From contig JAUICN010000001.1 of the NCBI GenBank assembly GCA_030427835.1, positions 145,929-209,928 of the forward strand: a stretch of 64,000 nt of DNA. Direction: 5' to 3'. The position numbers and the translations under genes are program-made. Shown piece by piece: positions 2,012-26,882 of the stretch; position 1 is the stretch's first letter, and every line of letters starts with the position of its first letter. The notes beneath the pieces are model-generated. The model had not been told where the DNA came from, made no database searches, and saw only the letters and a list, made by a program, of their open reading frames with translations. This DNA comes from Polyangia bacterium. GTDB taxonomy: Bacteria; Myxococcota_A; Polyangia; Polyangiales; JAUICN01.

Positions 2012-3760
2012 CTATTGCCCCCCTGGGGGTTGTAGGGTGAGCAGGGCTTGGTAGAGGGTGATTTCGTCGTCGGTGTATTCATCATCGAGCTGGAAGTGGT
2101 GTCTCAGGCGGGGGGCCAGACGCTTCGCTGCAATGTCGTAGGTAGGGGACTGGCAGGCGCAATCGATTCTGCTTTCGTCTTCGGTTTCATCGCAGGTGGG
2201 TAGTTCGTCTGGGCACCTCACAGACGGGCGGGGGCCGCTTTGAACGTGGACACCCACGGGTTGGCCTGCCCCCTGCCCGATCACCACGTCCAGGTAACCC
2301 ATGACCTGTTGTTGTGTTTCAACGTCCTCGAAACGTACGCTTACCTGCTGAATGTCTACGCGGCCTTTCGTTGTACTTTGGCAATGGCCAGGGGTGGAAC
2401 TCAGGTACGCATCTCGTCCGAACAATGATCGGTGGAGCGTACCTTGGGCCTGTGGCCTCACATCGTTGGGGGCACGGGATGAGGGGCAGCGGTCTGCAAT
2501 CAGATCCCCAGACGCGGTGGACGCAAACTCTGGAGCGGCCTCGGATACGCAGTCGAGAAACTCACGGTTGGCCCCTACCGTGGCGAGGGCTCCACGGGTG
2601 AGGGTGGCTCGCTGGCCGGTAGCCACCCCCAACAGCTGGTTGCCCAGAAGGGCGCCTCCACCCTCATCGCCTGGCCGCACTTCGGCGCCTACGCCAGCGA
2701 CCTCCCAATGGCCGGCAAGATGTGCACGCACATCGTAGGGTCTCCAGTGTTGAGCGAAACCCGTATTGGGTTTTCCGTATCCAAAAATCTGTAGCTTTGA
2801 CCTCACGTCGTCGGGATCGGGCATGGTGTTGGCAATCCGCGCTCGTGTTCCCCGTGGGATGGCAATAGAGTCTTTGGAAAGAAGTACCGCCATGTCATGG
2901 GTGGCTAGGATCGTTTTGTTGGGAGCCCACCAACCCCAGAAGGACTTGTTGACCAGGGTCAGGTGAATGGAGACCGTTCCTGTGGTCTCCAGGCGCCCGA
3001 CACCGATTCGAAGTTGGGAGGGGTTGGACCCCGACATCCATTTCTTGATACAGCTTGCTGCTGTCACCGCCACCGTGGGAAATCCTGCCACCGGTAGATC
3101 CACCAGTGTGGCGGCGCAGGCCAAGCGATGGAGGTTTCCCTGTTCTGAAAGTACATGCAGCCGGGGTGCGGTCGAAGGTGCCATACCCGCCCCCCAATCC
3201 CGGGACTGCCCAGCGCGGAGGCGCCCGGATATTTTGACTGACAGGTAATCTACCGCTTTGTCCTCCCGATCTTCTTTCGGCCTTATCACTCGCTTGAGTT
3301 TCGTGGCTAAACTGCTCTGTGCATCACTTTGCCCCATCCATTGCTCAGATTCACAGGTTGCCGGTGGATACAATGCCTGTCTCGTGCCTTCCGTGATCAA
3401 GTAGCGTTTGGTTTTGAGACTGTAGTGCATGGCAATCCCTGGGAAAATGTCATCCAGGCCTTCCCCTTCCGGATCCAACGCGTTGTTGCCGTCTCCGGAT
3501 AGGTTCACCAGCACCGTGGCCGAACGTATGAGGCCCAACGCGCTGCAAGGCCCAGTGTAAATCGAGGCCCTCAGATAGGCCGGGTCCACAATCATCTCAC
3601 CCACACGAATTGCGCTGAGCCCTAGGTCACCGAGGTCCTTGACGCCGGGTGGTTGGGTATGATGCGGAGCGCACGCGCAGAGTATGAACAGCCCGGCAAG
3701 ACCTGCCTTGGGACCTCTGGCTCGGTGCTGGACCAAAAAGGCCTTGTGTTGGGTTTTCAT
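2012..3760 (-). CDS. Trypsin-fold pseudoprotease lipoprotein A
   Basis: A 582-residue secreted protein with a lipoprotein signal (ILCAC, Cys30). An uncharacterised N-terminal region (to about 200) precedes a trypsin-like core. Its parts are CAATL with a second Cys in TAASC237 (the Cys42-Cys58 pair), HDMAVLL, GYG near 328 and GDEGGGALL near 364. The His57 position is Ser236 and the Ser195 position is Glu366, while Asp289 is kept. With these residues it should not be a serine protease. The C-terminus has a CP-x5-C...CAC cysteine module (516-536) and an acidic helical tail. The start was chosen at ATG 3760 because it overlaps the stop of the upstream gene by four bases (ATGA), indicating translational coupling with 3757-5679. 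Confidence 0.85.
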   Translation of the reverse strand: MKTQHKAFLVQHRARGPKAGLAGLFILCACAPHHTQPPGVKDLGDLGLSAIRVGEMIVDPAYLRASIYTGPCSALGLIRSATVLVNLSGDGNNALDPEGEGLDDIFPGIAMHYSLKTKRYLITEGTRQALYPPATCESEQWMGQSDAQSSLATKLKRVIRPKEDREDKAVDYLSVKISGRLRAGQSRDWGAGMAPSTAPRLHVLSEQGNLHRLACAATLVDLPVAGFPTVAVTAASCIKKWMSGSNPSQLRIGVGRLETTGTVSIHLTLVNKSFWGWWAPNKTILATHDMAVLLSKDSIAIPRGTRARIANTMPDPDDVRSKLQIFGYGKPNTGFAQHWRPYDVRAHLAGHWEVAGVGAEVRPGDEGGGALLGNQLLGVATGQRATLTRGALATVGANREFLDCVSEAAPEFASTASGDLIADRCPSSRAPNDVRPQAQGTLHRSLFGRDAYLSSTPGHCQSTTKGRVDIQQVSVRFEDVETQQQVMGYLDVVIGQGAGQPVGVHVQSGPRPSVRCPDELPTCDETEDESRIDCACQSPTYDIAAKRLAPRLRHHFQLDDEYTDDEITLYQALLTLQPPGGQ

Positions 3761-5679
3761 GGGCGGTTCCCTAGGGAGTTTTTCATGGTTTTCAGGAGGC
3801 TGTAGAAGTCGGTTTCGTCGTTGTCGAAGTCTTGGTGGGCGGCGTTGAGGTAGTTGCGAAAGCGGGGAACGGCGTGGCGGAGGGCCTGCTCGTAGTCGCG
3901 GGTGTGGCAGGCGCATTCGGTGCCGGTGACTGCAGCCACTTCTTCGCACCGGGGTAGCTCATGGGGGCACGGGTTGTGAAACACGTGGCCATCGCCAATG
4001 AATACCCCGTAGTAGGGTTCCTGGTGATTGACTTGCGCCCCTGGGCCCGTGGACAGGTACTGTGCCTCGATGGTGAGCGGAAAGTCGCGTATGAACTGGG
4101 GCAACTCGTCTGACAGTGCGCTGACCACCAGTTGGCGGGTGTTGTACACCTTGTCCCCTGCAAAACCCCTACAGCGGCCGGATTCCTCGCGGATGGCGAG
4201 CGTTCTTCCAAACGCTTCCATCAACCTCGTGCCCTCGGTGAAGGGGCCCGTAGGCAAATCCGTTTGGTCGGGGCAATGGTCTGCCAAAACCTCAAAGCCG
4301 CGACTCCCGAAATCGGTCCAGGTGCTGAAGTCGTTGCTCTGAACACACCCTAGAAAGTCGTGATTCATGCTCAGGGGCGCTGCGATGCTGTGTTCGTGAA
4401 CCTCTTGCTCGCTCACCACCGCCACGGGGACCTTCCGTTGAATTACCGCACCGCCCCCACACCCTGTGCAGCCCGCAGCGGGCGTGCCGTAGTAGTTCCA
4501 CAGAAACCTGGGAGGTTCCTCCAACGCCACGACGGATCGGGGTGTCCAGGTTTGGGGAAACCCGGTCTGGGGCCGCCCATAGGTGATGATGGATAGGTTC
4601 GAAGCGTGCGCCGCTGGGCCGGGTGTTGGGCTGGGTGCTGGGTTCGCAACGGCCCGGGATTGGGTCAGAAGTGTGTCCGCCAGGGGCAACCGTGGAACAG
4701 GCATGTTCTTCGTGGAAAGTAGAATGGCCACATCGTGGGGGCGCAATCGATCCTTCGCCTGGGAACGGTACGAGTTCTCCCAGTATTGGCGGTGAGGGAT
4801 CACCACATGCACGGGGATGGTGGTCGCTGCGTCGACCACTCCGTGACCCAAGCGAAGCGGTCGAACATGCTCGGTACGGGAAATGATATCGGAAATGGAT
4901 CCCTCTGGCTTGATGCAGCTCGCCGAAGTGAGTGCAACCATGGGGTACCCGTTTACCTCCAAGTCCACAGGAACGGCGGCGCAAACAAAGCGGCCCAAAT
5001 CCCCGGATTCTTCCAGAATGTACAGGGGCGCATGGGAGCTTCGTGCTTCATGCACCTGGGGCCACCAGTAGCTGTCCTGAACGAGCCGATTCATGACCTG
5101 GGCCACAAATCTTTGTACCCGTTCGGCAACGGTTGCTGGAGCCGGAGGGAGTTCCAGGAGCCTGCGCACGGTATGGACCCACTGCGCTGCCTGGTTCACC
5201 ACCTCCGCGTGGGCTTGCTTGAAGGACATGCCGAACGGGGTGCACACAGGTGGCGGCAGGACCGCAAAGGGCTCTAGGGACGTGGTGACGAGAAACTGTT
5301 GGGTGTAGACACTGTAGTGCAAGCCCAGGGACGAGTCGGCGTTGCTCCAATCGTTTTCTTCGACCGGTCCTGTGGTTCCTGTCTCAAGCCAGGGTGGTTC
5401 GGAAAACTCAGGGTCATCATGGTCCGATGGAAGCTCGGCATCCATCTCGAACATGAGGGTGCGTATCAGGCCATGTTCTGGGCAGTTCTGGAAGTAGCCC
5501 GACGCGCGTAGGCGGGAAGCCACCACCTCCATGTCATCGTCAAGCTCCAGGCGTGGTATTTCCAGGTCACCTAGGCTGGGCTCGTGGTGGCTGGCCTTGG
5601 TGACCGAGGGTAGAGGGGAGCAGGCCAGGAAGACCGCGCACGCGAGTACAGCCATGGGGCACAGAACTCCGGAACCCAT
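3757..5679 (-). CDS. Trypsin-fold pseudoprotease lipoprotein B
   Basis: A 640-residue paralog of the neighbouring product, first gene of a two-gene operon. The signal ends in FLAC (Cys20 from the chosen ATG at 5679); an ATG at 5655 would leave a very short signal and the open frame extends to 5874. The trypsin-like core runs from about 230 to 470: CAAVP and TSASC255, HDVAILL, TYG, then CTGCGGGAV. The His position is Ser254, Asp316 is retained, and the Ser195 position is Cys407 with the preceding Asp changed to Gly. A Cys nucleophile without a His partner is not expected to be active. The C-terminal cysteine module (CP-x5-C...CAC) is present, followed by a tail like that of protein A. Between core and signal is an N-terminal region shared loosely by all six paralogs. 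Confidence 0.85.
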   Translation of the reverse strand: MGSGVLCPMAVLACAVFLACSPLPSVTKASHHEPSLGDLEIPRLELDDDMEVVASRLRASGYFQNCPEHGLIRTLMFEMDAELPSDHDDPEFSEPPWLETGTTGPVEENDWSNADSSLGLHYSVYTQQFLVTTSLEPFAVLPPPVCTPFGMSFKQAHAEVVNQAAQWVHTVRRLLELPPAPATVAERVQRFVAQVMNRLVQDSYWWPQVHEARSSHAPLYILEESGDLGRFVCAAVPVDLEVNGYPMVALTSASCIKPEGSISDIISRTEHVRPLRLGHGVVDAATTIPVHVVIPHRQYWENSYRSQAKDRLRPHDVAILLSTKNMPVPRLPLADTLLTQSRAVANPAPSPTPGPAAHASNLSIITYGRPQTGFPQTWTPRSVVALEEPPRFLWNYYGTPAAGCTGCGGGAVIQRKVPVAVVSEQEVHEHSIAAPLSMNHDFLGCVQSNDFSTWTDFGSRGFEVLADHCPDQTDLPTGPFTEGTRLMEAFGRTLAIREESGRCRGFAGDKVYNTRQLVVSALSDELPQFIRDFPLTIEAQYLSTGPGAQVNHQEPYYGVFIGDGHVFHNPCPHELPRCEEVAAVTGTECACHTRDYEQALRHAVPRFRNYLNAAHQDFDNDETDFYSLLKTMKNSLGNRP

Positions 5680-6062
5680 ACAAACAGGCCCACCGTTCTC
5701 TATTGGGCCCGTTCCGGAGGCTTGGATCGCCCACACCTTGAGCTTTGGAACGGGAGGGTTCGAGCTGCAGCGGGCCCTATTTGGGCTAAAAGAACACGGT
5801 GCCACATGGGGACGTAGGCAAGGCCTGTTCCGCCGTGAATCGATCGCTGATTTCGACCCGGACATCGGTCGCAACGGACAGGAACCGCACTCAGACGGTC
5901 ACCGTGGTGGCCATGGCGTTTTACAAACAAACCGGAGTTGTCCGGGTGTTTCATGTGGCGGCGCAACCACGAAACGAGGCCTAGAAACCTGTACTCCGTT
6001 TCACATTTTCAACTATTCGTCCGGTTTTTATCCTGGAATACTATTTGCTTGGTTTCTTTTCT
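5680..6062. promoter_or_regulatory. Divergent intergenic region between pseudoprotease B and lipoprotein X2
   Basis: This 383-base stretch separates the minus-strand two-gene operon from the plus-strand lipoprotein gene, so it must carry both promoters. A TACTAT hexamer at 6039-6044 could be a -10 box for the plus-strand gene, but no good -35 box stands at the right distance. Open frames here look like shadows. No RNA gene or clear operator is visible. Confidence 0.4.
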
Positions 6063-7535
6063 ATGGCCCCTGACGTTCAATCCCCTTCGACCCGCTCACC
6101 CATTTTCGACCCCCCGAATGCCGCACGCACACGCCTTCACCTGATTTCCTGTCTGGTCACAGCGCTATCTATCAGTGCAATCAATGCCTGTGCCGCGGTG
6201 GAGAATCCTCCCATTGGCTCAAAGGCCACTGCCACTCCTGAAGGAGAGCCCTACCTTCTGTTGACATCACGGAAGGTGCTCAACTTGGGTTATTGTGAGG
6301 CGGGCCCCTTGCCGGCTAGGGGTCACAGCCAATGGATAGAACAACAACTGGGCAGGGCGCCTCTACCCAATGGGGTGTATTGCTCAGGGTGGAACCCGAA
6401 CCCACAGTCCCCAGGCTACATTCCTATTCGCGTGCGCAACCTGGTGACTCCACCTGATGACAGTGACGATGGCGGAACCCGCCGCGGCCGCATGGCCAAC
6501 GTCACCTATGCCGCTTCGCCATGGAACGACTGGCTTGGGATCGGGCACCTTGAAGAAGCCGTTGAAAAGGCACAAGTGGGGAAACCCCTGCCAGAGGGCG
6601 TAGCGGACGCCATGGTTCGGTTAAGCACGACCCAACGGGGTACGTTGCGCGCCAAGGAACTGGTAGGTGCGAGATTCCCCCAGGTCTACGAAGCGATTGC
6701 CCTCGGGAAGCCCCGCTTTGACGGAACCTTTTGGAGCGTTCCCGGTGTCATGGTCGTGTCGCTGTCAGGGCCGATGCTGCAAGCCGGACCTGAAACCGTG
6801 CAAGCAAGGCAAGGAACACTGGTCGCCACGGGCCCGGGCGGCGCTCGGGTGATGCCCCATCGTATGTCTATGGGTCGGGGCGTCTCGGGTGGAATGGCAT
6901 TGATGCTCGTCGAAGGACTCCGGGTACTCAGTGATGTCATCAACCACTCGAAGGAGGCCGCATGGGACCTGTCGGTGGTCCAGCCCCTGGCGGACGGGAG
7001 CGTCGAGATTCTCAACGGTGCTTCCTTCAAAACCCTGGAAGACGTACGAGCCGCCACCGACGCCATCTGGAACGGAGACTACACATTCACCGAGAAGAAA
7101 GGGCCGATGATGCGGGTTGTGAAATCACCGAAAACGGAGACGGGTACTGGTAGGCCCAGTGGGTTCGATCCACCCGACTACGAGGACATGGACTATTGCC
7201 AGGTGACCCACCCGGGCACCCACATAAACTGTATTGGCGACTACGACGCGATTCTCAACGACGATCTTTTTCTGGGGACGTACTTGCTTGCGTCTGACGC
7301 TTCGGCTGTTACGTGTCCTGTCACTGTGGGCTACCGGAAGGGATCTGCCACTGGAACGATTTCGTTTGGGGGCGGCCACATTACAAGCCCTGACATTGCT
7401 CAGGTGTTCGACAGGGGCCCGTTCTTTTCTCCCAGCGGTCAGCCCATGCAATCCCATGCCAAGGAAGTTTCGGTGAATGCCTTTTTGCAATCCATGGGCT
7501 GTTCTGGAATCGAATACGTCACGATCACAAACTAG
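6063..7535 (+). CDS. Secreted lipoprotein of unknown function (paralog 2 of two)
   Basis: A 490-residue protein with no recognised domain. The N-terminus has an Arg-containing n-region, a hydrophobic stretch and INAC, so lipidation is likely. ATG 6063 is preferred to TTG 6045, although neither has a strong ribosome-binding site. It shares with 548-1960 the Y-C-x-G-W motif (VYCSGW), a middle segment, a C-x4-G...C pair before residue 400, and a final domain with CPVTVGYRKG and FGGGHI. Overall identity looks low but the order of motifs is the same. It ends 25 bases from the stop of the convergent four-gene pseudoprotease run. Secreted, probably facing the periplasm or cell surface; its role is unknown. 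Confidence 0.7.
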   Translation: MAPDVQSPSTRSPIFDPPNAARTRLHLISCLVTALSISAINACAAVENPPIGSKATATPEGEPYLLLTSRKVLNLGYCEAGPLPARGHSQWIEQQLGRAPLPNGVYCSGWNPNPQSPGYIPIRVRNLVTPPDDSDDGGTRRGRMANVTYAASPWNDWLGIGHLEEAVEKAQVGKPLPEGVADAMVRLSTTQRGTLRAKELVGARFPQVYEAIALGKPRFDGTFWSVPGVMVVSLSGPMLQAGPETVQARQGTLVATGPGGARVMPHRMSMGRGVSGGMALMLVEGLRVLSDVINHSKEAAWDLSVVQPLADGSVEILNGASFKTLEDVRAATDAIWNGDYTFTEKKGPMMRVVKSPKTETGTGRPSGFDPPDYEDMDYCQVTHPGTHINCIGDYDAILNDDLFLGTYLLASDASAVTCPVTVGYRKGSATGTISFGGGHITSPDIAQVFDRGPFFSPSGQPMQSHAKEVSVNAFLQSMGCSGIEYVTITN

Positions 7536-7560
7536 TGGGCCGATTGAACTGGCGGCCTAG

Positions 7561-9480
7561 CTACCAGCTTTTTCCGACGCGTATGGCTTGCAGGGTTTGG
7601 GTGAATTGTTGGGCTTCTAGGGGGGTGACTTCGGGGAGTTCTAGGGCGCGCTTGGTGAGGCGGAGGACGTGTTGCAGGGCCGCCTCCTTGGTTTTCCATT
7701 GGCAGTCGCAGGTATCCAGAAGCTCTGGGGTGGCGTTCTCGCAGGAGCCAAAGGTACTGGGGCACTTGCGGGCATCGTTGGGGCCCGCGAGCTGGACGGA
7801 GAAGATATCCTGAACCACCTGTGGGCCCAGCTTCGGTGCGGGTACCTCCTGGGCGACCACGGTGATTTCGAGATTCCTCACCCCGCCTTGGGGGTTTGCT
7901 GCCATGCCCTGGTCCTTTTTTTGAAAGTACAGGGGGAGTTCCAAGACCCCAGGGAACTTGCCGTTCTCGGCCGGCCCACAGGCGCTTGACTGCCAGGGTT
8001 CGACAATGATGCGGTAGCCCCACAGATCCATTTCCCGGGCGCCCAGGGCAATGAGGCTATCCCCTCCCCTAAGACCTCGATCGTTGGATTGGGATGTGTC
8101 GTTGCAACTGGCTGAATCGACCTTCATGGAACCATCTGTGGGGACCTCTCCCGCAGCAAGCGCAAGGGCGCAATTGATAAAACCTCGGTGTTCCAGCATG
8201 GATTCGATGAAGATGTGCTCGTTTTTTTCACCCCAGGTTCCGTTGACCACCCCCCAAATCACTTTGGTGCCGTTGTCCCCACATGCGCTGAGAAGACCGC
8301 CACCGCCGTCGCCCATGGCATGGAAACCCGATCCAAACGATAGGCTCCAATAGTGGTCCCGGCTACTTTCCATGTTCTGTTCGATCCACTCCTGTCGGTG
8401 CGTCGATACTGCTACCAGTTCACCCGCAGGCGCGAGAGAAGGATTTCCGGTTCGAGGAAGGCCGTATCCCACGGTAAAAAGCTTCTTGTCCGGTGCGGAT
8501 AGTACTTGGTGGGATGCCGGAAGTGCAGCCACCGCGCCGGACAGGGTGCCTCGACTAAACAGGAGGGCAATGTCGTTGGGAGCGGTGGCCTCGAACTGGT
8601 ATCCGGGAAAACCCGCCACGACCGACTGGGTTACATCGTGCGGATAACGGCTGTGAACCACTGCGAGCTCCACCGGAAGGACCTGCTGCGTGTTGAATAC
8701 GCCCGTGCCAAGCCCGAGGGATCGGTGTTTCCTGACACAGGAGGCACTGGTGATGGCCACGGTATTCCAGGCGCCTTCTGGGCTGCCCGGAACCCGTATG
8801 GGAGTGGCCGCGCAGGAGAGCCGCCGGTGCCCCGCGTGGAGGGTCGAAATGTACGCGTGGGGCACACCCGATGTTGCGTTCTCTGTACCGGGAGATGACA
8901 CAGGACTTCGAACAACCCCGGGGAAATCTCCCTGCTCAAGCTTTGTGAAGAGACTTTTCACCCGACTCTCAATACCTGTGAAGTGGCCGTCTTCAACGTA
9001 CAAATTGTTGTGGGCAAGGAACTCCAACGCCCACCTGGCGGCATGCAGATGGGCTTTCTCCTGAGCCTCGATCCGGGACATCGATAGATCACCACAGGCC
9101 AGGGGTTCGTGTTGGGGGGGGGACCCGACGGCCTCCTTGACCAGGTAGGCACTGGAGTCTGCACTGCGGTACACGACAAGGGACTCACGCCCGCCGATTT
9201 TCAGAAGCACGTTGGGGTCGTCCAGATGGTGGTTCACTTCATCTGGAAATAGGCCAAGGGTCACGCTCCAGATGCGGCCGTACCCTGGGCAATCCTGCTC
9301 AAGACCAGAGACCCAGGGCCCCGCGCCTGCAAACCTCCAGCCCACTCCCAGGGGGAGTGGGGCAAACAGGGGCACGCTGCTTTGCGGTGCTTTGGCATGC
9401 CCCTGGGGACGGGCTGTACACGCTGCACCCAACACCCACAGCAAAGGCACTATCGCAAACAGGAATCGTAGTGGAAACAT
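7561..9480 (-). CDS. Trypsin-fold pseudoprotease lipoprotein C
   Basis: A 639-residue member of the six-gene family and last gene of the second run. ATG 9480 gives a fitting lipoprotein signal (VLGAAC, Cys21); a GTG at 9510 is in frame but would add ten residues ahead of it. Core: CAATP with TSASC248, NDIALLF, GYG near 338 and GDGGGGLL. The His position is Ser247, Asp303 is kept, and the Ser195 position is Gly392. The active site is therefore lost, while the fold markers remain. The cysteine module reads CPSTFGSC...CDC, followed by a helical tail. It lies 33 bases after the preceding gene, so it is probably co-transcribed with it. Confidence 0.85.
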   Translation of the reverse strand: MFPLRFLFAIVPLLWVLGAACTARPQGHAKAPQSSVPLFAPLPLGVGWRFAGAGPWVSGLEQDCPGYGRIWSVTLGLFPDEVNHHLDDPNVLLKIGGRESLVVYRSADSSAYLVKEAVGSPPQHEPLACGDLSMSRIEAQEKAHLHAARWALEFLAHNNLYVEDGHFTGIESRVKSLFTKLEQGDFPGVVRSPVSSPGTENATSGVPHAYISTLHAGHRRLSCAATPIRVPGSPEGAWNTVAITSASCVRKHRSLGLGTGVFNTQQVLPVELAVVHSRYPHDVTQSVVAGFPGYQFEATAPNDIALLFSRGTLSGAVAALPASHQVLSAPDKKLFTVGYGLPRTGNPSLAPAGELVAVSTHRQEWIEQNMESSRDHYWSLSFGSGFHAMGDGGGGLLSACGDNGTKVIWGVVNGTWGEKNEHIFIESMLEHRGFINCALALAAGEVPTDGSMKVDSASCNDTSQSNDRGLRGGDSLIALGAREMDLWGYRIIVEPWQSSACGPAENGKFPGVLELPLYFQKKDQGMAANPQGGVRNLEITVVAQEVPAPKLGPQVVQDIFSVQLAGPNDARKCPSTFGSCENATPELLDTCDCQWKTKEAALQHVLRLTKRALELPEVTPLEAQQFTQTLQAIRVGKSW

Positions 9481-9513
9481 TGATTTTGGGGAAGGATGGG
9501 AGGCGCGCACGAT

Positions 9514-11373
9514 CTAGTCTTTCTTGTTTTCTAAGTCTTTGCGCAGGATGGCCTGGGAAAGTAGCTCGACGCCTGCGTCGTGGATGGGAGCAACGCCCAC
9601 GTGGAGTTGAACCAGGTGTGCTGCGTGGCGCGCCGCCTCTCCCAGGCTCTCCCAACGAACACTGCAGTTCGGCGCACGCTCCGGGGGTTCTTTGCAGGCA
9701 CCCAGGGAGGAGGGGCATTGGAGAGGCTCCATGGGATCCACGGTTTGGACCGATGCATACAGGGGGCCGTAGCTGTACAGGGTCGTGAGGTACTCCACGC
9801 CCACCGCAAACTGCCCCACGGGCAGACGGTGACCCACCTGCCCTTTTTTGTACACGCTGATCCGCCTCTGGGGGATGTGGGAAGAGGGCACCCCGTTGTT
9901 CAAGCACTGGGCCACTTCCCAACCCTCCACCACCACCTCGTGATCCCAGAGATCCAGTTTCCGCGCAGACAGTGCAGTGGGGGCACTGCCCAGAAACAGC
10001 CTGCGATCCTGTTGGGCATCGTCGCAGTGGGCGCGGTCCACCCAGGTGGCTCCAGGAGCGATACCATTGGGAGCGTTCTCTGCTTTTGACTGTTGCAGGG
10101 CACAACGGAGAAATGCATGGTGTTCCAACACGGGCGTCAGGTAGATCAACGTGTCAGATGCCGGGGGCACGCCACTGACCACGGCCCAGAGCACGTTGTC
10201 ATCACTGATGACTCCCCCACCGTCATCCCCTTTTGAAAGGGGTGCACGCACATGGGTGTACCAACCCCCGCGGGTACCAGGGTCTGTTGCCGACATACGC
10301 TCGCCATAGGCACTGATTTCTGCGGGTTGCCAAAGGTGAGCGGCACCGGTCCTCGGGCTCCCATAGCCCACACCAAACAGATTGGTTTCAGGTGCCTTCA
10401 CCACATCGTAGGCGGGCGGCATCTTGGCCCATAATCCTGGGAGGGGCTTGTCCGAAAATACCATGGCGATGTTGTCAAAGTTGTGCGTCTCAATCGCAAT
10501 CTGACTTATCTTGGGTGGCCTGTAGTTGGCATGGGCAACGGCCAACCGGAGGGGCACCATGTTGGATGCGTCAAAATCACCCGTGCCTAGGTAGTAGGTG
10601 TGGCCCCGTTTCAGGCAGGAATCGGCAGTGACCGCGGCTACGCCGGTGGACTCCTGGGCACTCTCCCACCCGTGGGTTTGGATGGGAGTTGCGGCACAAA
10701 CCAGGTGCACGTGATCACCTTCCTGTTCCGCGAGATATCCGTGGGGGACCTGTTCTCCAATGGTACCGGTGCGCAGGCGCCCGGGTGCGTTGAGGAATCC
10801 GGACTGCATCCGTGCGACGAGTTGGGTCAGCGAGTCGTAGAGCCGATCGCCGTCAAGTGTGGCCTGGACCATGCGATGGCGATTCCATGTCTCGACCAGG
10901 TCCAACAGTCGGTCGAGCAGTATGCTCGGAAGTCCCTGGGCAGGAAGTTGGAAGGAACGGCAACCCGGTGTGGGTCGCCGCCCCCTTCCAGTATGCATCT
11001 CAAATGCAAACCTATGGGTTCGCCTACTGTAGTGCAGGACCACGTGCCCGGCATCATGCAGGGAGGCTACGGTCCAGGGGTCGTCCATGTAGTAATACGC
11101 ACTTGGATGGATCGCACCGAGGTGTACCGACAGGATATGGGGGTGCTCTGGGCATTCATTTAGGAAACCAGAAACCCAGGGACCCAGGGCTCCCAACACC
11201 CAATCCTCGCTGAGTTCCATCGGTTCCATGAGGTAACTTCGGGAATGTGTGGACTTGCCCCGTTTTCCGAACTCACCGTCGGGCGCGCACGACAGCGCAG
11301 CTAACCCAGCCACCATGGCGGCCAGAGGCAACAGGTAGGCCACAACAATGGGCGAGCGCGATTCCATGGTCAT
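9514..11373 (-). CDS. Trypsin-fold pseudoprotease lipoprotein D
   Basis: A 619-residue paralog. The start at ATG 11373 overlaps the stop of the upstream gene by four bases (ATGA); a second ATG at 11367 follows in frame. The signal ends in ALSC (Cys29). Core: CAATP with TADSC253, DNIAMVF, GYG and GDDGGGVIS. The His position is Ser252, the Asp102 position is Asn301 and the Ser195 position is Asp384, so all three catalytic residues are gone. A conserved GPWVSG segment before residue 70 is shared with protein C, suggesting that C and D are the closest pair. The terminal cysteine module is CPSSLGAC...NC but lacks the final CxC seen in the others. Confidence 0.85.
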   Translation of the reverse strand: MTMESRSPIVVAYLLPLAAMVAGLAALSCAPDGEFGKRGKSTHSRSYLMEPMELSEDWVLGALGPWVSGFLNECPEHPHILSVHLGAIHPSAYYYMDDPWTVASLHDAGHVVLHYSRRTHRFAFEMHTGRGRRPTPGCRSFQLPAQGLPSILLDRLLDLVETWNRHRMVQATLDGDRLYDSLTQLVARMQSGFLNAPGRLRTGTIGEQVPHGYLAEQEGDHVHLVCAATPIQTHGWESAQESTGVAAVTADSCLKRGHTYYLGTGDFDASNMVPLRLAVAHANYRPPKISQIAIETHNFDNIAMVFSDKPLPGLWAKMPPAYDVVKAPETNLFGVGYGSPRTGAAHLWQPAEISAYGERMSATDPGTRGGWYTHVRAPLSKGDDGGGVISDDNVLWAVVSGVPPASDTLIYLTPVLEHHAFLRCALQQSKAENAPNGIAPGATWVDRAHCDDAQQDRRLFLGSAPTALSARKLDLWDHEVVVEGWEVAQCLNNGVPSSHIPQRRISVYKKGQVGHRLPVGQFAVGVEYLTTLYSYGPLYASVQTVDPMEPLQCPSSLGACKEPPERAPNCSVRWESLGEAARHAAHLVQLHVGVAPIHDAGVELLSQAILRKDLENKKD

Positions 11374-13205
11374 TGGGAAAGCGCCATTGCAAGATGTTCG
11401 TAAAGAACGACGGCATCGTTGTCGTATGCACTGGTGGTGGCTCCATACCCCCCGCGAACTTGAGCCACAACCACAGTGGCCGCGTCCTCTGGTGTGAATA
11501 CTTTGCACGCACACAGGTGACCCGGAAAGTTCATATCGCAGGAACCCATTTGCTGGGGGCACTGTATCTGTGACTTCTCTGTTTCAACGACATGGATCCC
11601 GTACACGGTTTCGTGTTCGACAGGGATCGACGCGAGGTACGCCCCTTCCCTATCAAAGTTACTGCTGCGCTTGACTAGAATGCGGTGACTTTTACCCGTG
11701 TCACTATCGACAATGGAAAACCATAGGTGATCTACTGGATAAAATGGCCCGTAGGGACCGGCCGAATCGGGGGAACATACGGCCGACTCCACGCCGAACG
11801 AATGGAACTCGTATCCAAAAACCAGGATTTCTTCCGCAGTGTCGTCATAGGGAGCAGGCCCACCACCTTGGGGGCAGGAACTCGTGAGCAATTGATAGTT
11901 CGGAGAGGCTGGATCGATGCGATCGTGATCACGGGGAGCACGGTGATACACGGCGGCCTCTGCAGCACACCGGAAAAAATCAGCGTGGGTGCCCACGGGT
12001 ATCACAGACACCCCCTCGAGATGACCTTCATCGTCGAAGGCACTGTCGTTCACCACTCCAAATAGTGTCCCATCTGAGATGAATCCACCGCCCGTGTCCG
12101 CTGTCTCAGTGCGTATTTCGGGCCCGTGAATCGTCCACAGGGGACCCGCCCCGGATCCCACACGTGTGCCCTGGCCGTTCCACACCCGAGGCAAACCCAA
12201 CTCGGGTCGACCATAGCCAAATACTTGACCGTTGCTTGATGGGATCTTACCCCGGCGCGCCAGTCGATATGTGGCTCCGGTTTCGTGCCGTTGGGAAAAC
12301 AGCACCGCGAGCCCGTAGTTTCTTCCAAAAAAGGAATCGTAGTTGCGGTGCACGACTGCAAGCTCCACCGGGATGACATTCTTTGAGTTCACGGGACCGC
12401 GACCCACAAGCAAGGGCAAATCGTTTCTTAGCTCCCCGGTGACGTCCAAGTAGTTGAGGCAATCCGCGTGGGCGACCCAGGCGGACCCGTGGTTTGACAG
12501 GGGCAGATGAACCGGAGTCGCGGCGCACACCAATCGCAACAGATCCCCATGTTGCTGCATTACATAGGCGAAGTCCGATTCGATTTTCGCGGGAGCGGTG
12601 TCCGTGGGCGGATACCGATACTGCACAAAGGCTTCATAGACACTTCGCGAGAACGCCTTGATCTTGTCTCGATCCTTTTGGTTCGGCGGGAAGACCCTTA
12701 GCAAGTCATAGACTTCTGTGACTGCGGCAAGCAACTCGCCATGGAACTCGTAGAGTGACTCCCGCGCCGTTTTCTGAAACACCGTGCATTGCTCAGGGGG
12801 TGTGGCGGCTTTCCCGCCATTGCTCTTGGTTGCTTCGAACCGCATCGTGTCCTGGTTCCAATGCAGTCCCACCACGGGCTCCAATTCGTGCCACGGAACC
12901 ACAAGCTCAGAATTCATGGGTTCATAGATGTTGATGAAGATATTGAGAGAGCTGATACGCCCGCCGCCTTCGCAGGGAGCCGCGTAGCCACTTAGGAAGG
13001 TCCTCGCATTGTCGAGCACAACACCGTGCTGGAGTTCCACGGGTGCGACGTCGAGGTCACTGGATTTTCGCTGCGTGTCGCCCGCCCCCAGCGGTGTGCA
13101 GGCCCCTAGGAGGGAGGTCATGATCGCCACGCTGCGGGGACAACAAACTCGTGTCGCCTTACCTAGAAAGGTCCGTGGGCATCTTTTTTTCACCCAGTCC
13201 TCCAT
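11370..13205 (-). CDS. Trypsin-fold pseudoprotease lipoprotein E
   Basis: A 611-residue paralog. The ATG at 13205 abuts the TAG stop of the upstream gene (TAGATG), consistent with termination-reinitiation. A basic n-region leads to LLGAC (Cys36). Core: CAATP with HADC249, YGLAVLF, GYG near 330 and ADTGGGFIS. The His57 position is Asp248, the Asp102 position is Gly298 and the Ser195 position is Thr371. Although a His sits two residues earlier (His246), its register is wrong for catalysis. The cysteine module is CPQQMGSC...CAC. The core is conserved well enough to align by eye, so a structural or binding role is more likely than decay (inference). Confidence 0.85.
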   Translation of the reverse strand: MEDWVKKRCPRTFLGKATRVCCPRSVAIMTSLLGACTPLGAGDTQRKSSDLDVAPVELQHGVVLDNARTFLSGYAAPCEGGGRISSLNIFINIYEPMNSELVVPWHELEPVVGLHWNQDTMRFEATKSNGGKAATPPEQCTVFQKTARESLYEFHGELLAAVTEVYDLLRVFPPNQKDRDKIKAFSRSVYEAFVQYRYPPTDTAPAKIESDFAYVMQQHGDLLRLVCAATPVHLPLSNHGSAWVAHADCLNYLDVTGELRNDLPLLVGRGPVNSKNVIPVELAVVHRNYDSFFGRNYGLAVLFSQRHETGATYRLARRGKIPSSNGQVFGYGRPELGLPRVWNGQGTRVGSGAGPLWTIHGPEIRTETADTGGGFISDGTLFGVVNDSAFDDEGHLEGVSVIPVGTHADFFRCAAEAAVYHRAPRDHDRIDPASPNYQLLTSSCPQGGGPAPYDDTAEEILVFGYEFHSFGVESAVCSPDSAGPYGPFYPVDHLWFSIVDSDTGKSHRILVKRSSNFDREGAYLASIPVEHETVYGIHVVETEKSQIQCPQQMGSCDMNFPGHLCACKVFTPEDAATVVVAQVRGGYGATTSAYDNDAVVLYEHLAMALSQ

Positions 13206-15098
13206 CTAGCTGTCCACTAGGGCGCGTCGGAGGTTTTCGAGATCGTTGTGCGTGGGGTTTTCCACGCCAAGGTCAAATTGAATACGGTGCACCGCATTGT
13301 TGATGAGGTTTGTGGCCCCGTCTTGTCTGCATTTGCAGGTAAGATCGATGGGGACACCAGGTTGTTCTGGGTGGCATTCACACGCTCCAAAGGTGGAGGG
13401 GCACGCCATTTCGTGGGGCGCCACAACCGGCCCTACCATGCCGACCACGACAGGGGCCCCCGGCTCCTCACCCGTGGCCATGTTGCTCTCCACCGTGAGC
13501 GACCAACTCAACCGCAGACGTGTCTCACTGGACTGTTCCACTTCGTAGATGTTCCGCCGTTTGATGTGCCGGGTGGTATTGGCATCGACCCAACAGTGCC
13601 CCGGCTCCCAATTGGTTACCTCGAGCACATGCTCCCCAAAACCCAGAAGGGAATGATCATCCGGTTGTCCCTTGGGTTCATGGCCACAGGACTCAAAGTC
13701 ACTTACCCGTTTGGCGCCCTGGTTGGCAGGGGTGTTTAACGCCCTCTTGAAAGCGCACTCCAGAAACTCACGATTGGCACGAACCGTGGCAGCTTTCACG
13801 GAGGGCCTGCCGTTTTTCCCCCGGTAGCCCACCAGGGTTCCCCAATAGGTGCTTGGCTTTCCGTCCTTTCCCGGTTCGACGACTCCGCCACCCAGGTCGT
13901 GGACCCCCATCGGGGCATCCGGCCTGGGAAAGGTCCAGTAGCTTGCTCCCTCGGAGGTGGTTTCGCCCGATACCCGGTAGGCACGGGGTTGCCACTGGTA
14001 TGGGTTCACCGTCAAATAGTTGAGGTTTCTCTCCACAATGCTGTAGCCCACGGCCATCAGGGTGTGACCGTAGGGCTGCAGCCATCGATCCCTGGGCAGA
14101 CGCGCCCCGGGCTGGGTGCGGCCGTTGCTTGCGGCTGTCTTGGTTCCAAACAGGACCGCCAAGTGATGGCCGGGATTGCTTTCGCCACCAGACCCAAGCT
14201 TCCTGCTCATCGCATGCCCCACCACCAGGCCCACCCGCGCCATGTGACGGGGGTCCACCCTTCCGGTTCCCACGTAGATGTCAGCCCCCCCCACGCAGTC
14301 ACTGGAGGTCACCACCACCAGATTCCACCCTTTCACCGGGGGCACCACATCCAGGGCGGTGGCCGAGCAGCGGAGGAAGGCCACATCACCTGCATCCCAG
14401 AACACGTATGCCGCCGATGGTTCGCTGTTCAGGGCCAATGAACGCCCCTGGGGCCCCGCGGGGGTCTTGTTGATCTGGGGCAGGGCAGCCTTGACGTAGT
14501 CATCGATTTGGTGGAGGAGCCCCTTCGGATGATCGCTCTTGCCACTGGCCTCACGTAAGCCCGCCATGATGTGGTCGGCAGCCGATTCCACTACCTCGGC
14601 CTCGGATTTCACAAAGAGATCTTCACAGTTCCCGGATGGAAACTCCTCCCACGTGTTGTCCGCCAACAACACCGCGTACCGGTTGTTTGCGCTGTGGTGA
14701 ACACCCACTCGCTGGTGATCTGGCCAACGGGGAGGTTCGTCGGTGCCGAGTATTTCGAAATACAGGGATCGAACGGGAGAATCACCCGAGCAATACCGAA
14801 TGACAGACATCTCCGGATGCCTTGCGGAGAGGAACCACCCGTGCCCCAAATCAAGATCGGGCAACCCCGTCGCGCGCTTGGCGTGTTCTGACGGGCGAAC
14901 ATTGCCGGGGGCGCACCCCCCCGAAAACAACGCAAACCACCCAAACGATACCAACAACAACAGCATGGCAACACCACCGACGGGCTTGCATTTACGGGCC
15001 TTGGGACCCGCCAAGGGGGCCGATGGGGTGTGGAATACAACGTACACGGGGTTTGTGAACCCCACAGCAAGGTCTGTTCCTGGCCAAAACTCTCCCAA
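13206..15098 (-). CDS. Trypsin-fold pseudoprotease lipoprotein F
   Basis: A 630-residue paralog and first gene of the four-gene run. The start is uncertain: TTG 15098 opens the frame, GTG 15047 is another choice, and the lipoprotein signal (FSGGC, Cys62) lies well inside. Core: CSATA with TSSDC268, HHLAVLF, GYS in place of GYG, and VHDLGGGVV. The His57 position is Asp267, the Asp102 position is His312 and the Ser195 position is Leu402. This is the most degenerate active site of the six. The cysteine module is expanded (CPSTFGACECHP...CKC). Upstream lies a 226-base gap that should contain the operon promoter; nothing specific was recognised in it. Confidence 0.8.
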   Translation of the reverse strand: MGEFWPGTDLAVGFTNPVYVVFHTPSAPLAGPKARKCKPVGGVAMLLLLVSFGWFALFSGGCAPGNVRPSEHAKRATGLPDLDLGHGWFLSARHPEMSVIRYCSGDSPVRSLYFEILGTDEPPRWPDHQRVGVHHSANNRYAVLLADNTWEEFPSGNCEDLFVKSEAEVVESAADHIMAGLREASGKSDHPKGLLHQIDDYVKAALPQINKTPAGPQGRSLALNSEPSAAYVFWDAGDVAFLRCSATALDVVPPVKGWNLVVVTSSDCVGGADIYVGTGRVDPRHMARVGLVVGHAMSRKLGSGGESNPGHHLAVLFGTKTAASNGRTQPGARLPRDRWLQPYGHTLMAVGYSIVERNLNYLTVNPYQWQPRAYRVSGETTSEGASYWTFPRPDAPMGVHDLGGGVVEPGKDGKPSTYWGTLVGYRGKNGRPSVKAATVRANREFLECAFKRALNTPANQGAKRVSDFESCGHEPKGQPDDHSLLGFGEHVLEVTNWEPGHCWVDANTTRHIKRRNIYEVEQSSETRLRLSWSLTVESNMATGEEPGAPVVVGMVGPVVAPHEMACPSTFGACECHPEQPGVPIDLTCKCRQDGATNLINNAVHRIQFDLGVENPTHNDLENLRRALVDS

Positions 15099-15324: not shown

Positions 15325-18048
15325 CTAGTGAGCAGGTTCCACCTGGGTTCCGGGAGCAGGAAGGGGTGTTGGTGGGCGCGCGTTTCGGAGCCCCTGCTCC
15401 ATGGTGCTGGCCCGCTGGTTCGCGCGCTCCAGGTCCCGGCGGAGGTCCGTGGCGGATGAGTTCAGGCTAGCGATCTGGGCATAGGCACGGGCGGTTTCCT
15501 GGTGCGCAAGCGCCAACTCATCCTGCTTTCGGGCGAGCTCGTTCTGTTGTTGAGCCAAGGTGCGTTGCTGATCTGACGACGTGCGCTGCTGATCCGCCAG
15601 TTGTTGTTGGAGCCGGGCCGCCTGACGTTGGAGTACGGCCATGCGCTGTTCCAACTCCACTACCTGGGACTGTTGCCGGGCCAGCTTGTCCCCCAGTTGT
15701 AGATTCCGGGCCTCACTGGCTTGCCATTGGGTTTCAAGGTCCGTTGTGCGGGCCTGGGCCTGTACCAGTTCCTGGGCGGTATCGTCGGCACGTTTTCGGG
15801 TTTGGTTCAATTGCTGTTCCGTGTGTGCCAGGGCCTCTTCCCGGGCAGCCACGGTTTGCTGTGCCTCATTCAACTCTGCGCTTCTTTGCCGAAGATCCCC
15901 CGCCAGGCGTTCGCTGTGAGCGTTGGCCGTTTCCAGTTCGCTTGTGAGTTCCCCTGTACGTCGTCGTTCGGTGGCAAGGCTGGATTGGGAAACCGCAAAG
16001 CTCGCCTCCGCCTCACCCAGCTTGTGGGCCAAGTCCATGCGCGTCAGGCGGCTTTGCTGGTAGCGATCTTCGATGCGCGCCACATCCTGCTCCAGGGCCA
16101 TGCGCCGCTGGCTTTCCGCACTGAACTCGGCCCGCGCCTGCTCGGCCTGGAGCCGTTGAAACTCGGTCTGGTTGGCCATCACAAAAACCACTGCGGCAAA
16201 TACGGCGCCCAGGGCAAGCGTGGTTGGGGCGAGCCATCGAACAAGGCGCGCCCTCTTCGCCCGCTGCTCCTCGGGGCGGGTAAGCAAGGTTAACTCCTTT
16301 GCAAACTCCTCCGCCGTGGGCCGCTCTTTTGGGTCCAGGCTCATCCAGCGATCAAACGCGGAACGGAGGAAACGTAAATCCTTGGTGCGGGGATGCTCAG
16401 GAACCACACTTGCGCGGGCGGCCACGAAGCTTTCCACCGCACCGGCCTGAACCTCCTCTTGGGTCTCTGGATCCAGGGCATTGCGCAGGGCCAGGGCCAG
16501 GGAGAATACATCCGCCTTGGCGCCCACGGGGGGCTTTACCTGCGCATTGGCAAACTGGGCTGCCACTTCGGGCGCAAAGTAGGTTGGGGTACCGGCGACC
16601 ACCATTTCCGCTTCCTTGGCGGCCACTCCAAGATCGAGCAGCACGGGCAACAGGCCCTCTTCGGTGTCCCCACCAAAGCCTTCCAGCTTGGTGAGCAGAA
16701 TGTTGTCCGGCTTGATGTCCTGGTGCCGAATCCCCACCGCGTGCATGGTGGCCAGGGCGTAGGCGAGTTTTTCAAAGATGGGCCGGGCTTCCGCGCGGGA
16801 CAGGGCACCCCGCTTGAGGCGCGCACCCAGGGTTTCGCCGTCGTACCAGGGCATGACGAACCACAGGCGCCCCTCATGCCAACCGTGGTCCTTGAACTGA
16901 ACCACCGAGGGATGAAAGACTGAGGCAATAAGCCGCAACTCCCGCAATGCCGCATCCCGTGCCTGTTGGGAATAGGAGGGCTGGTGCAATAGTTTTAGGG
17001 CCACCACATGGTTGGGCACGTGGGTGTCTACCGCCCGGTACACGTCCGCAAAGGATCCGGATCCCGCCCGGCCTAGCACACGAAAACGGTTTCCGATGGT
17101 GGTGCCTTCGCACAGGGGGGCGTGGGTATCTGTGGCCCCAGGCTTGCTCTCCTCCTGGACCGACTCAAGCGCAAAGGCATCGAGCAATGCACTTCCAAGC
17201 CCACGCCTCTGATCGCCCTTGATCCCCTTGGATAGGGTCCTCAACGGTTCGACGGTGGGTGAACTTTCCGGGCGCTGCCCTGCTGTCTTGGGATCACCCA
17301 ACAGCTGTTCACCGAGCAGGAGCTGTGCATGGGACAGGGCGGTCTCGAGATGCTCCCGAACATCCCGCTCATTGCGCTCCACCACAAAGGCCACTTCTTC
17401 CAGGGTGAGTTCCCGGGCGTAACAAAGCTCCAGGAGTTCGGATTCCAGGGGCTGCAGTTCCTTTCGCAACCGGGCGAGGGCCTCGTTGTAGGCAGGATCG
17501 TGGAAGCTTCGAACCGGTAGGCCCAGGGTACTGTCCGCCCACTGCAGAGGCTGCCCCTGCTTTTGGGCCATTCGCCGGGCCATTTGAAATAGGCGTGCGC
17601 GGATCCCCGGGGCCTGAACCAACTGTTCCGCACCCTGCGCGGCCACCATGGCCTGGACTTCTGTGAGGGCCTGCTTTGCGTCCTCGAGATCTCCTAAACG
17701 AAAGGTCAGGTATTGGCGCAGGCCCTCGGCGTAATGGCTCAGGGCCCGAACGCGGACCACGTCCACGACGGTTCCCAACACGCCCGAAGAAGAGGTGCCC
17801 GTGGAAGATGGATCCTGCGAAGATGGATCCCGTGGAGAAAGGCCCGCGCGCGCCGCAATGGACTCCGCGGCGGCGGCAAACATGGGTCGCGTGCCCTTTT
17901 TCTGGCGGTCGGGTGAGGTGGAAGCCAAACCCAGGGAGTCTTGAATGGAAGCCATGGGGTCGAAGCAATCCCCGAGAAGGTCAGGGTTTACCTGTTTTCC
18001 CTGGGGCTGAATCCCCCTGGATTCTTCCAAAGGCGGCAAAAGGTCCAT
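15325..18048 (-). CDS. Ser/Thr protein kinase with ECF-sigma-like N-terminus, TM helix and coiled coil
   Basis: A 907-residue protein. Residues about 106-165 resemble ECF sigma region 2 (YAEGLRQYLTFRLGDLEDA, then a LFQMARRMA linker). Residues 190-245 resemble region 4 (LQPLESELLELCYARELTLE and a helix-turn-helix). A eukaryotic-type kinase domain spans 319-585: GRAGSGSFADVY loop, VALKLL lysine, RHQDIKPDN catalytic loop (HQD, not HRD), DLG in place of DFG, and YFAPE. One membrane helix follows (about 605-625), then a long Gln/Arg-rich coiled coil to a Pro-rich end. ATG 18048 is chosen because a TTG at 18150 would lie within a terminator. The catalytic Lys and Asp are present, so it is probably active. 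The sigma-like part may have become a regulatory or DNA-binding module. Confidence 0.85.
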   Translation of the reverse strand: MDLLPPLEESRGIQPQGKQVNPDLLGDCFDPMASIQDSLGLASTSPDRQKKGTRPMFAAAAESIAARAGLSPRDPSSQDPSSTGTSSSGVLGTVVDVVRVRALSHYAEGLRQYLTFRLGDLEDAKQALTEVQAMVAAQGAEQLVQAPGIRARLFQMARRMAQKQGQPLQWADSTLGLPVRSFHDPAYNEALARLRKELQPLESELLELCYARELTLEEVAFVVERNERDVREHLETALSHAQLLLGEQLLGDPKTAGQRPESSPTVEPLRTLSKGIKGDQRRGLGSALLDAFALESVQEESKPGATDTHAPLCEGTTIGNRFRVLGRAGSGSFADVYRAVDTHVPNHVVALKLLHQPSYSQQARDAALRELRLIASVFHPSVVQFKDHGWHEGRLWFVMPWYDGETLGARLKRGALSRAEARPIFEKLAYALATMHAVGIRHQDIKPDNILLTKLEGFGGDTEEGLLPVLLDLGVAAKEAEMVVAGTPTYFAPEVAAQFANAQVKPPVGAKADVFSLALALRNALDPETQEEVQAGAVESFVAARASVVPEHPRTKDLRFLRSAFDRWMSLDPKERPTAEEFAKELTLLTRPEEQRAKRARLVRWLAPTTLALGAVFAAVVFVMANQTEFQRLQAEQARAEFSAESQRRMALEQDVARIEDRYQQSRLTRMDLAHKLGEAEASFAVSQSSLATERRRTGELTSELETANAHSERLAGDLRQRSAELNEAQQTVAAREEALAHTEQQLNQTRKRADDTAQELVQAQARTTDLETQWQASEARNLQLGDKLARQQSQVVELEQRMAVLQRQAARLQQQLADQQRTSSDQQRTLAQQQNELARKQDELALAHQETARAYAQIASLNSSATDLRRDLERANQRASTMEQGLRNARPPTPLPAPGTQVEPAH

Positions 18049-25616: not shown

Positions 25617-26882
25617 TCAGGACAACAGCGGGGGATTGGAACGCCGCCGCGCGCTGAGCCGGCCCGGTCGGTTTGATCTGGATCCGTTGGAGCCAGATCG
25701 ATTGAACCCAGATCGATTGGAGCCGGCATTGGCCACGAATCCATTTGGGTCAAAACCATGGACTCCAGTCCTGTTTGCGCTCGTTTCACTGGCCTGTTTC
25801 CGGGCCAGCGGAAGAAGTTGCCCAGGCCCTCTGGCAACGACTTGGGTTTCCTTGGCAATGCCGCGGTTTTTCCCCATGGTTCGCAGGGCATACCGGCGTT
25901 CCGCGTAGTCCTGATCACCCTTCCAAAGGAGGTTGGCACGATACTCCAGTACCGGGCTCACCACCCTGGCGACCCAGGGAAGAATCTTGGAAAACTCGGG
26001 ACGATCGGAGACGGCATAGGTCACCTCCACGATTGCGGTTTCACCTGGCCCCATAGGAGTGGCATGGGTGCACACCATGGAACCTGCACCCTCCCCTTGT
26101 ACAATGGTCATGACGACCGTTCTTGGGTCTGAGCAATGGAACGTGGCGTCTACCTCGACGACCAACGGGCCCAACACACGAAACGCGGCACGTACGGCGA
26201 TGCTTTCCTCGGTTCGATCAAGAAGCGTGACCCTGGCGGGCCTTTGTGGCTGGTTTGCGGCGGAGTGCCAGGGGTCGAGCCGGTTTGCGATCACATCCTG
26301 GGGGTCGCACTTGACCACCTTTCGCAACACGCCAGGGATGAAGTGATCCGGTTGGGGCACCGCAAGGGGATGTTGGGTAAGGCGTTCATCCAGGCCCGTG
26401 ATCGTGGGGGGCAACTGCACCCAACAGAGGACACCGTCGTCACAGGTATTGTAGGGCTGCCAGGCACCGCGCCCCTTGGCGCCCAGCTCCAGGCCATGCC
26501 ACGGGCACACCAGGACGTCCCTGCTCTGCCCCGTGCCCTGTTGACTTTTCTTTCGTACGGAAGCGCAACTCAGGTCGGCTCCGAGATGGGGGCAGGCGGC
26601 AGGCGCAACACACACGTGGCCTTCCGCACGCCATGCCACCAGCTCCTGCCCATGGATTACGAACTTGCGGGGAGCCTGGATACGGGCGCTGGCGTCCAAC
26701 ACAAACCACCCACCACCGGGTTTTCTTAGGCCATGATTTAGGGCCCCGTGAACCCACGTCGGATCCGCCTGCACCCACGGGGGTTCACCGTGGGCCAGGT
26801 GAGTCGGCCGTTGCGCCAGGGGCTTGCTGATATTCCGGAAGATGGGAAAGGATCGCTCCCCGATTTGGATTTTCCACGGCAT
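25617..26882 (-). CDS. Rieske 2Fe-2S domain protein (DUF5914-like)
   Basis: A 421-residue protein. The Rieske ligands are clear: CPHLGA (CxH) and CPWHG (CxxH), separated by an insertion with a basic SVRKKSQQ stretch. The second half resembles the DUF5914 region found in Rieske proteins near carotenoid genes (family assignment from memory; the catalytic mononuclear iron ligands were not identified). The next gene on the same strand is a CrtC-like hydratase, so a joint role in carotenoid or isoprenoid modification is inferred. The C-terminal tail is low-complexity (pentapeptides such as SGFNR). The start is ATG 26882. Confidence 0.8.
   Translation of the reverse strand: MPWKIQIGERSFPIFRNISKPLAQRPTHLAHGEPPWVQADPTWVHGALNHGLRKPGGGWFVLDASARIQAPRKFVIHGQELVAWRAEGHVCVAPAACPHLGADLSCASVRKKSQQGTGQSRDVLVCPWHGLELGAKGRGAWQPYNTCDDGVLCWVQLPPTITGLDERLTQHPLAVPQPDHFIPGVLRKVVKCDPQDVIANRLDPWHSAANQPQRPARVTLLDRTEESIAVRAAFRVLGPLVVEVDATFHCSDPRTVVMTIVQGEGAGSMVCTHATPMGPGETAIVEVTYAVSDRPEFSKILPWVARVVSPVLEYRANLLWKGDQDYAERRYALRTMGKNRGIAKETQVVARGPGQLLPLARKQASETSANRTGVHGFDPNGFVANAGSNRSGFNRSGSNGSRSNRPGRLSARRRSNPPLLS
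25681..25725. repeat. Three 15-bp tandem repeats in the Rieske gene 3' end
   Basis: Three units (25681-25695, 25696-25710, 25711-25725) share the pattern GATC-x2-TTG-x2-CC-x. In the encoded protein they give a repeated G-S/F-N-R/G-S pentapeptide. The unit length is a multiple of three, so changes in copy number keep the frame. Confidence 0.75.

Follow-up and report, generated by a model that had tools for sequence, protein, structure and literature searches.

Sigma mimicry, kinase-regulated ECF sigma factors and ECF sigma factors with extensions are all known already, and the closest described systems are found among them. In PhyR, the sigma-like domain has the correct structure of an ECF sigma factor with degenerated promoter and core contacts, and it titrates NepR (PMC8103513, in the part available). 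PhyR has a receiver domain that is phosphorylated on aspartate by histidine kinases. In the ECF sigma factors regulated by Ser/Thr kinases (EcfP/PknT and EcfK/PknS; ECF43 and ECF59), the ECF fold goes together with a transmembrane Hanks kinase and an altered DAED motif; in EcfP/PknT and EcfK/PknS the sigma factor is a functional protein in its own right, which phosphorylation at the DAED position activates. In another set, comprising ECF41/SigJ, ECF42, ECF52, ECF57 and IutY, a sigma factor and a regulatory domain are fused, sometimes with membrane segments, and the sigma factor stays functional; a kinase extension is not described for them in the available part of PMC8999054. In the literature searched, of which coverage was incomplete so that the silence is weak evidence, no fusion of a sigma-like domain with a Ser/Thr kinase is described (the papers touching on the matter, each available in part, are PMC8999054, PMC13147305, PMC8103513, PMC11032199, PMC2877116 and PMC8567305).

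The stretch of DNA analysed here, hereafter the window, comprises 64,000 nucleotides of a Polyangia bacterium (contig JAUICN010000001.1, positions 145,929 to 209,928). On its minus strand, at 15325..18048, lies a gene for a protein of 907 aa in which a sigma-like domain and a Ser/Thr kinase are followed by a membrane helix and a coiled coil. Like PhyR (PMC8103513, in the part available), this protein has ECF-like sigma2 and sigma4 parts with degenerate contacts within a polypeptide presumably controlled by phosphorylation. Unlike PhyR, it has its own Ser/Thr kinase, membrane helix and coiled coil, and no Pfam match to a receiver domain was found in it at E up to 10. It shares the ECF fold, the transmembrane Hanks kinase and the altered DAED motif with the kinase-regulated ECF sigma factors, but in its family the two parts are fused at 37 of 37 loci, and there is no conserved Ser/Thr at the DAED position, unlike in ECF43 and ECF59. 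It resembles the extended ECF sigma factors in the fusion itself, whereas those keep a functional sigma (PMC8999054, in the part available). We class the window protein as neither a sigma factor nor a PhyR.

The architecture described in the earlier note, a sigma2/sigma4-like N-terminus before a Ser/Thr kinase, then a single membrane helix and an extended coiled coil, has been borne out. The reading frame gives 907 aa from an ATG at 18048 and 941 aa from an upstream in-frame TTG at 18150; either may be the start codon, as conservation begins only near residue 85-93. The sigma2-like part (residues 90-165; 17554..17781, minus strand) consists of three helices, delimited by the AF2 model, VIA superposition on ECF sigma factors and the alignment; it has DAKQ at the DAED position and an Arg, within IRARLF, for the region-2 Trp. 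The sigma4-like part (residues 181-252; 17293..17508, minus strand), delimited by a Sigma70_r4 match (E 0.003), AF2 and VIA, and column counts, has a helix-turn-helix with an acidic recognition helix and the pattern LELxxAREL...E.A, which is invariant in the family. The two motifs quoted in the earlier note correspond to residues 110-124 and 201-219. At the junction with the kinase is a conserved linker helix with an FAL motif (LLDAFALE, residues 278-295; 17164..17217, minus strand).

The Hanks-type kinase domain (residues 324-583; 16300..17079, minus strand) is identified by Pfam Pkinase (E 9e-30), by its motifs (VALK at 349, HQDIKPDN at 442, DLG at 472 and GTPTYFAPE at 486) and by Foldseek, in which Mycobacterium tuberculosis PknI is nearest (5m06, E 9e-13) and PknB is also among the matches. 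The catalytic Lys, the HRD Asp, the DFG Asp and APE are all present in the predicted kinase; the HRD Arg is replaced by Gln, and we take the resulting HQD to denote a non-RD kinase. A match to the NCBIfam family MAD6 (E 3e-30) was set aside, as it reflects kinase-domain likeness only and its score is far below the MAD6 cut-off. By hydropathy there is a single membrane helix (residues 606-624; 16177..16233, minus strand), flanked on its N-terminal side by basic residues. On this basic flank, and on our assumption that the positive-inside rule applies here, the sigma-like domain and the kinase would be cytoplasmic and the coiled coil periplasmic. The coiled coil (residues ~625-890; 15379..16176, minus strand) shows a strong hydrophobic periodicity of 3.5 residues (0.749; neighbouring periods give 0.05-0.20), zero Pro in the 235 residues tested, and SMC-like matches. 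The kinase fold, the catalytic motifs and the one membrane helix are common to the window protein and transmembrane Hanks kinases such as PknB and PknI; it differs from them in having a sigma-like domain in place of the kinase N-terminus and, on the outer side, a coiled coil in place of PASTA repeats.

How far is the N-terminal domain a sigma factor? With single sequences the answer is faint, and the Pfam comparison suggested in the earlier note gave weak results: Sigma70_r4 (E 0.0031; 17.5 bits, under the curated cut-off of 24.1) and r4_2 (E 0.064) both matched the window protein below threshold, and r2 gave no match. Among 14 family members compared with Pfam at E up to 10, r4_2 was matched by eight and r4 by seven, and r2 is absent among the 15 Pfam families listed for them. 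The match becomes significant when the family profile is used in place of a single sequence. A profile of 34 homologues of the domain (A2), aligned by hhalign with eight canonical ECF sigma factors from the window's own genome, gave Prob 90.1 and E 1.6e-6 over 147 collinear columns spanning regions 2 and 4, against Prob of at most 0.4 for one reversed profile and 30 column shuffles. Among PDB sequences, the profile of 14 members found the ECF sigma factor 6dxo (E 4e-4) and, end to end, M. tuberculosis SigL (E 0.01); with the 34-member profile both were weaker (E 0.0044 and 0.11). A2 also reached separate ECF sigma factors of relatives, up to E 1.8e-9, under the family's own scores, and the family aligns with ECF sigma factors without gaps in region 4.

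The predicted structure agrees. An AlphaFold2 model of residues 85-312 (mean pLDDT 83.7, pTM 0.81) contains both helical domains for which the earlier note had proposed to look, and hhalign, AF2 and VIA all place sigma2 and sigma4 in one chain with sigma3 absent. In VIA the top match is RpoE-NepR (5uxx, Z 13.3, with an rmsd of 3.3 across 152 aa), and the other top matches are SigW-RsiW (Z 12.3), CnrH-CnrY (12.1), PhyR-NepR (4qic, 11.8) and SigG1, PhyR superpositions ranging over Z 9.3-11.8; Z values of ~12-13 lie at the upper edge of the range attainable by unrelated helical folds. RNAP-bound sigma factors superimpose domain by domain, with an overall rmsd of ~27, and the packing of sigma2 against sigma4 is predicted to be closed, as in anti-sigma-bound sigma factors and PhyR. 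The linker helix is modelled with confidence (residues 278-291, block pLDDT ~94). For most PhyR entries without NepR, the VIA alignment stops where model residues 204-206 are paired with receiver-domain residues near 247-255; these alignment range ends give a hint, to be taken as a lead, that the linker helix may occupy the docking place of PhyR's receiver. A chance likeness between helical domains could be read into the sub-threshold Pfam matches and into the Foldseek result for the domain, whose best E is a weak 0.006. The profile comparison, however, exceeds its reversed and shuffled controls, the genome scan with the family profile arrives at true ECF sigma factors, region 4 aligns without gaps, and the Foldseek list consists almost wholly of sigma factors and PhyR, as do nearly all the top fold matches, so that we consider chance exceedingly improbable. 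Judged by these comparisons, the domain is a sigma factor by descent, and the claim of the earlier note stands that an N-terminus homologous to ECF sigma2 and sigma4 resides in the same polypeptide as a membrane Ser/Thr kinase (hhalign, AF2 and VIA).

Descent does not entail function. The region-2 Trp and Asn are promoter-contact residues of sigma factors. We compared 34 family members with 38 aligned ECF sigma factors from the same genome and its relatives; neither set consists of independent samples, and the controls leave out L080 (a non-sigma protein by sequence), the non-canonical ECF sigma factors L076, L079 and L081, and seven rows with weak ECF likeness (L111-L113, L115-L117 and L124). 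Among these excluded rows are some of the sequences closest to the family, which keep the region-2 Trp. This Trp is present in 37 of the 38 ECF sigma factors and in none of the members, and the following Asn in 31 and none, respectively. The region 2.2 Gln is found in 35/38 against 4/34, and the last acid of DAED in 38/38 against 7/34. Net charge is reversed both in the DAED stretch (-3.29 in ECF sigma factors, +1.59 in members) and in the recognition helix, where the ranges are disjoint (+4.24, from 3 to 7, against -1.18, from -4 to 2). DAED meets the beta' clamp of RNAP (PMC8103513, in the part available); in the members, this position is mostly occupied by His, Ala, Arg or Asp, and it has no conserved Ser/Thr. 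Some residual contact of region 4 with DNA or RNAP is conceivable, since one Arg of the recognition helix is retained in 22/34 members. As the residues contacting core RNAP and promoter are lost family-wide, the domain is very unlikely, by its sequence, to be a working sigma factor, and the earlier suggestion that promoter binding could be tied to membrane signalling is not supported, for the same reason.

The domain does not look like a relic, either. Thirty positions are conserved in at least 31 of the 34 members, and about two thirds of them are family-specific and not ECF-like; seven (G119, R158, L208, L214, E218, A220 and A237) are also the commonest ECF residue, some weakly. The family's own conserved positions include T93, Q112, P147, G148, R195, A211, R212 and F292-A293-L294. 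A211 and R212 occur in 0/38 ECF sigma factors, each of the linker residues F292, A293 and L294 is present in 33/34 members, and T93, which lies outside region 2.2, is the sole invariant Ser/Thr in the domain. Because of these new family-specific invariant residues, the domain is regarded as constrained, not decaying. The alternative offered in the earlier note, a vestigial protein-binding domain, therefore survives by half: protein binding fits better, but "vestigial" does not, the conserved positions being mostly family-specific. We hold with high confidence that a sigma fold and loss of sigma function are combined here.

A sequence search followed by a profile search in 38 genomes of the window's order gave 22 matches of at least 52 bits in 16 genomes, the next score being 39.8 bits, where separate ECF-like sigma factors start. 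Twenty of the matches lie in frames of at least 655 aa with kinase similarity; the remaining two are in frames of 197 and 467 aa, in which the match extends to the frame end. In a sample of 377 genomes of the phylum, with the best eight candidates per genome scored, the domain was found at E 1e-10 or better in at least 24, every one in the window's order. One peptide pattern run against 84,980 species genomes retrieved 37 relatives, assigned to Myxococcota, Myxococcales, Deltaproteobacteria, Polyangiaceae, Polyangia, Sandaracinaceae or Sandaracinus MAGs, two being labelled "uncultured bacterium". In all 37 retrieved loci (one cut at its 5' side, three at the 3' side), the domain and a kinase motif lie in a single frame, and computation on these sequences shows fusion to the kinase to be obligatory in the family. 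As a second copy in the window's own genome, the only other match (C27, E 1e-3) was rejected; its gene, judged by sequence and an aroA neighbour, presumably encodes a cytidylate kinase. The family members L007 / L067 and L064 have an insertion of ~11 residues in the sigma4-like helix-turn-helix, reminiscent of the one in kinase-associated ECF sigma factors. Thirteen further related kinases were found in relatives of the same order, six with a more diverged sigma-like domain and seven without one. Seven such membrane kinases, L088-L094, resemble the family in their kinase and coiled-coil tail but lack the sigma-like domain, and so provide natural controls for its role.

The separate ECF sigma factors closest to the family bear on its origin. 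Adjacency to kinases was tested twice, on loci of unequal length at contig ends. With 1.5 kb flanks, which miss kinase genes whose catalytic domain sits far from the shared border, no difference appeared (2/14 of the closest separate ECF sigma factors against 2/23 others, p 0.62). With flanks of ~5 kb, the comparison was between the 20 best profile matches outside the family (12 genomes) and 20 ECF sigma factors from eight of the same genomes: a kinase gene lay within 600 nt in 6/20 against 0/20 (p 0.020), and any kinase lay in the locus in 10/20 against 1/20 (p 0.003). In a tree built from 16/34 members, six paralogues, 8/10 extended ECF loci (the two lacking a near kinase were dropped) and 18/38 ECF sigma factors, the family and its paralogues (100/99) group with six of the eight kinase-associated ECF sigma factors against the other ECF sigma factors (99/94); this grouping is partly circular, the eight having been picked among the closest matches, and the tree is midpoint-rooted. 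The family probably arose when the two genes of an ECF-kinase pair fused, which is the simplest account of these sequence relationships though not a proven one. Among Myxococcota, the ECF-like sigma factors L148, L149, L150, L152, L154 and L155 adjoin very large kinase genes and form a candidate group of kinase-controlled ECF sigma factors; in several of them the region-4 helix-turn-helix contains an insertion, and no adjacent anti-sigma gene was seen in the parts of these loci examined.

Gene neighbourhoods do not suggest a partner. The genes around the window gene encode a dihydrofolate reductase, a thymidylate synthase and an outer-membrane-like protein, besides a tandem array of uncharacterised proteins, and no neighbour besides the gene itself is common to the window and the 37 family loci. 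At other loci the conserved neighbours are a Na/sulfate-type symporter and a 230-aa protein with no Pfam match, which do not point to a partner. An ECF profile detected no ECF gene beside the 13 related kinases, and the few conserved neighbours scanned gave no Pfam anti-sigma match. Two other features of the window may be recorded. Directly downstream of the kinase gene (2012-15098, minus strand) are six tandem genes for mutually related proteins of 611-705 aa (14/15 pairs at E <1e-3, 21-28% identity), with Pfam matches in 0/5 scanned and N-termini resembling lipoprotein signals by eye; they look like an expanding surface-protein family adjoining a membrane kinase. At 25617-26882 on the minus strand, a Rieske protein with DUF5914 lies beside an arginine decarboxylase gene and a prolyl oligopeptidase-like gene.

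What, then, does the domain do? The reading that we tentatively prefer, at somewhat below even confidence, is a membrane Ser/Thr kinase that has a former ECF sigma factor as its N-terminal domain, now serving as a sigma-mimic binding module. The periplasmic coiled coil would sense a signal or mediate clustering, which would change the state of the kinase; phosphorylation of the sigma-like domain, the linker or a bound partner would then let the sigma-like surface hold something else. By analogy with PhyR and NepR, the activated protein may titrate an anti-sigma factor and so free a separate ECF sigma factor. That the partner belongs to a sigma network, with an anti-sigma factor as first candidate because PhyR titrates NepR, is possible but rather doubtful. 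Unlikely in its entirety, though worth stating, is a one-protein partner switch, in which a transmembrane kinase with its own sigma mimic would respond to a periplasmic signal by titrating, at the membrane, an anti-sigma factor or else the RNAP beta flap; this would be a PhyR-like system outside alphaproteobacteria, with an independent origin in the fusion of an ECF-kinase pair. The main rival, a real possibility that we nevertheless doubt, is that the domain has no link left to sigma regulation and serves for docking or autoinhibition, by binding to the kinase domain or by recruiting substrates. It would account for the invariant T93, Q112, P147, G148, R195, A211 and R212 outside the ECF-like conserved set, for the conserved linker helix and FAL motif that connect domain and kinase, and for the scanned loci, in which neither an anti-sigma nor a sigma gene was seen as a neighbour. 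A mere docking patch, however, has no need of a whole two-domain ECF fold with packing like that of anti-sigma-bound sigma factors, and seven of the 13 related kinases in the order do without the domain.

Two further readings keep the domain in contact with the transcription machinery. A working ECF sigma factor at the membrane, activated in cis by phosphorylation (as in EcfP/PknT and ECF43) or by proteolytic release, has precedents in ECF sigma factors controlled by neighbouring kinases and in ECF sigma factors that are freed when their membrane extension is proteolysed (PMC8999054 and PMC8103513, in the parts available), and the enrichment of the closest separate ECF sigma factors beside kinase genes is in line with it. 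The absence of the region-2 Trp from 34/34 members, the acidic recognition helix and the location of T93 outside region 2.2 argue strongly against it, and EcfP-like activation in cis was set aside, as no Ser/Thr is conserved at the DAED position; we give this reading very little credence. A domain that binds the RNAP beta flap through its sigma4 surface, and so tethers RNAP or competes with sigma factors at the membrane, would fit the strongest conservation, which falls in the first two sigma4-like helices (LELxxARELSxxExA), presumably the side facing the beta flap in sigma factors. Most residues there, however, are not the ECF ones, as A211 and R212 illustrate, and we hold this reading, too, to be very improbable.

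Sigma mimicry has so far been detailed for PhyR, an aspartate-phosphorylated response regulator, and myxobacteria have hundreds of kinases, with outputs known for a minority. The members of the family are small and single-copy, so a hunt for the partner is practical. If the preferred reading, a sigma-mimic binding module on a membrane kinase, is true, sigma mimicry would have arisen more than once and could be coupled to a Hanks kinase directly.
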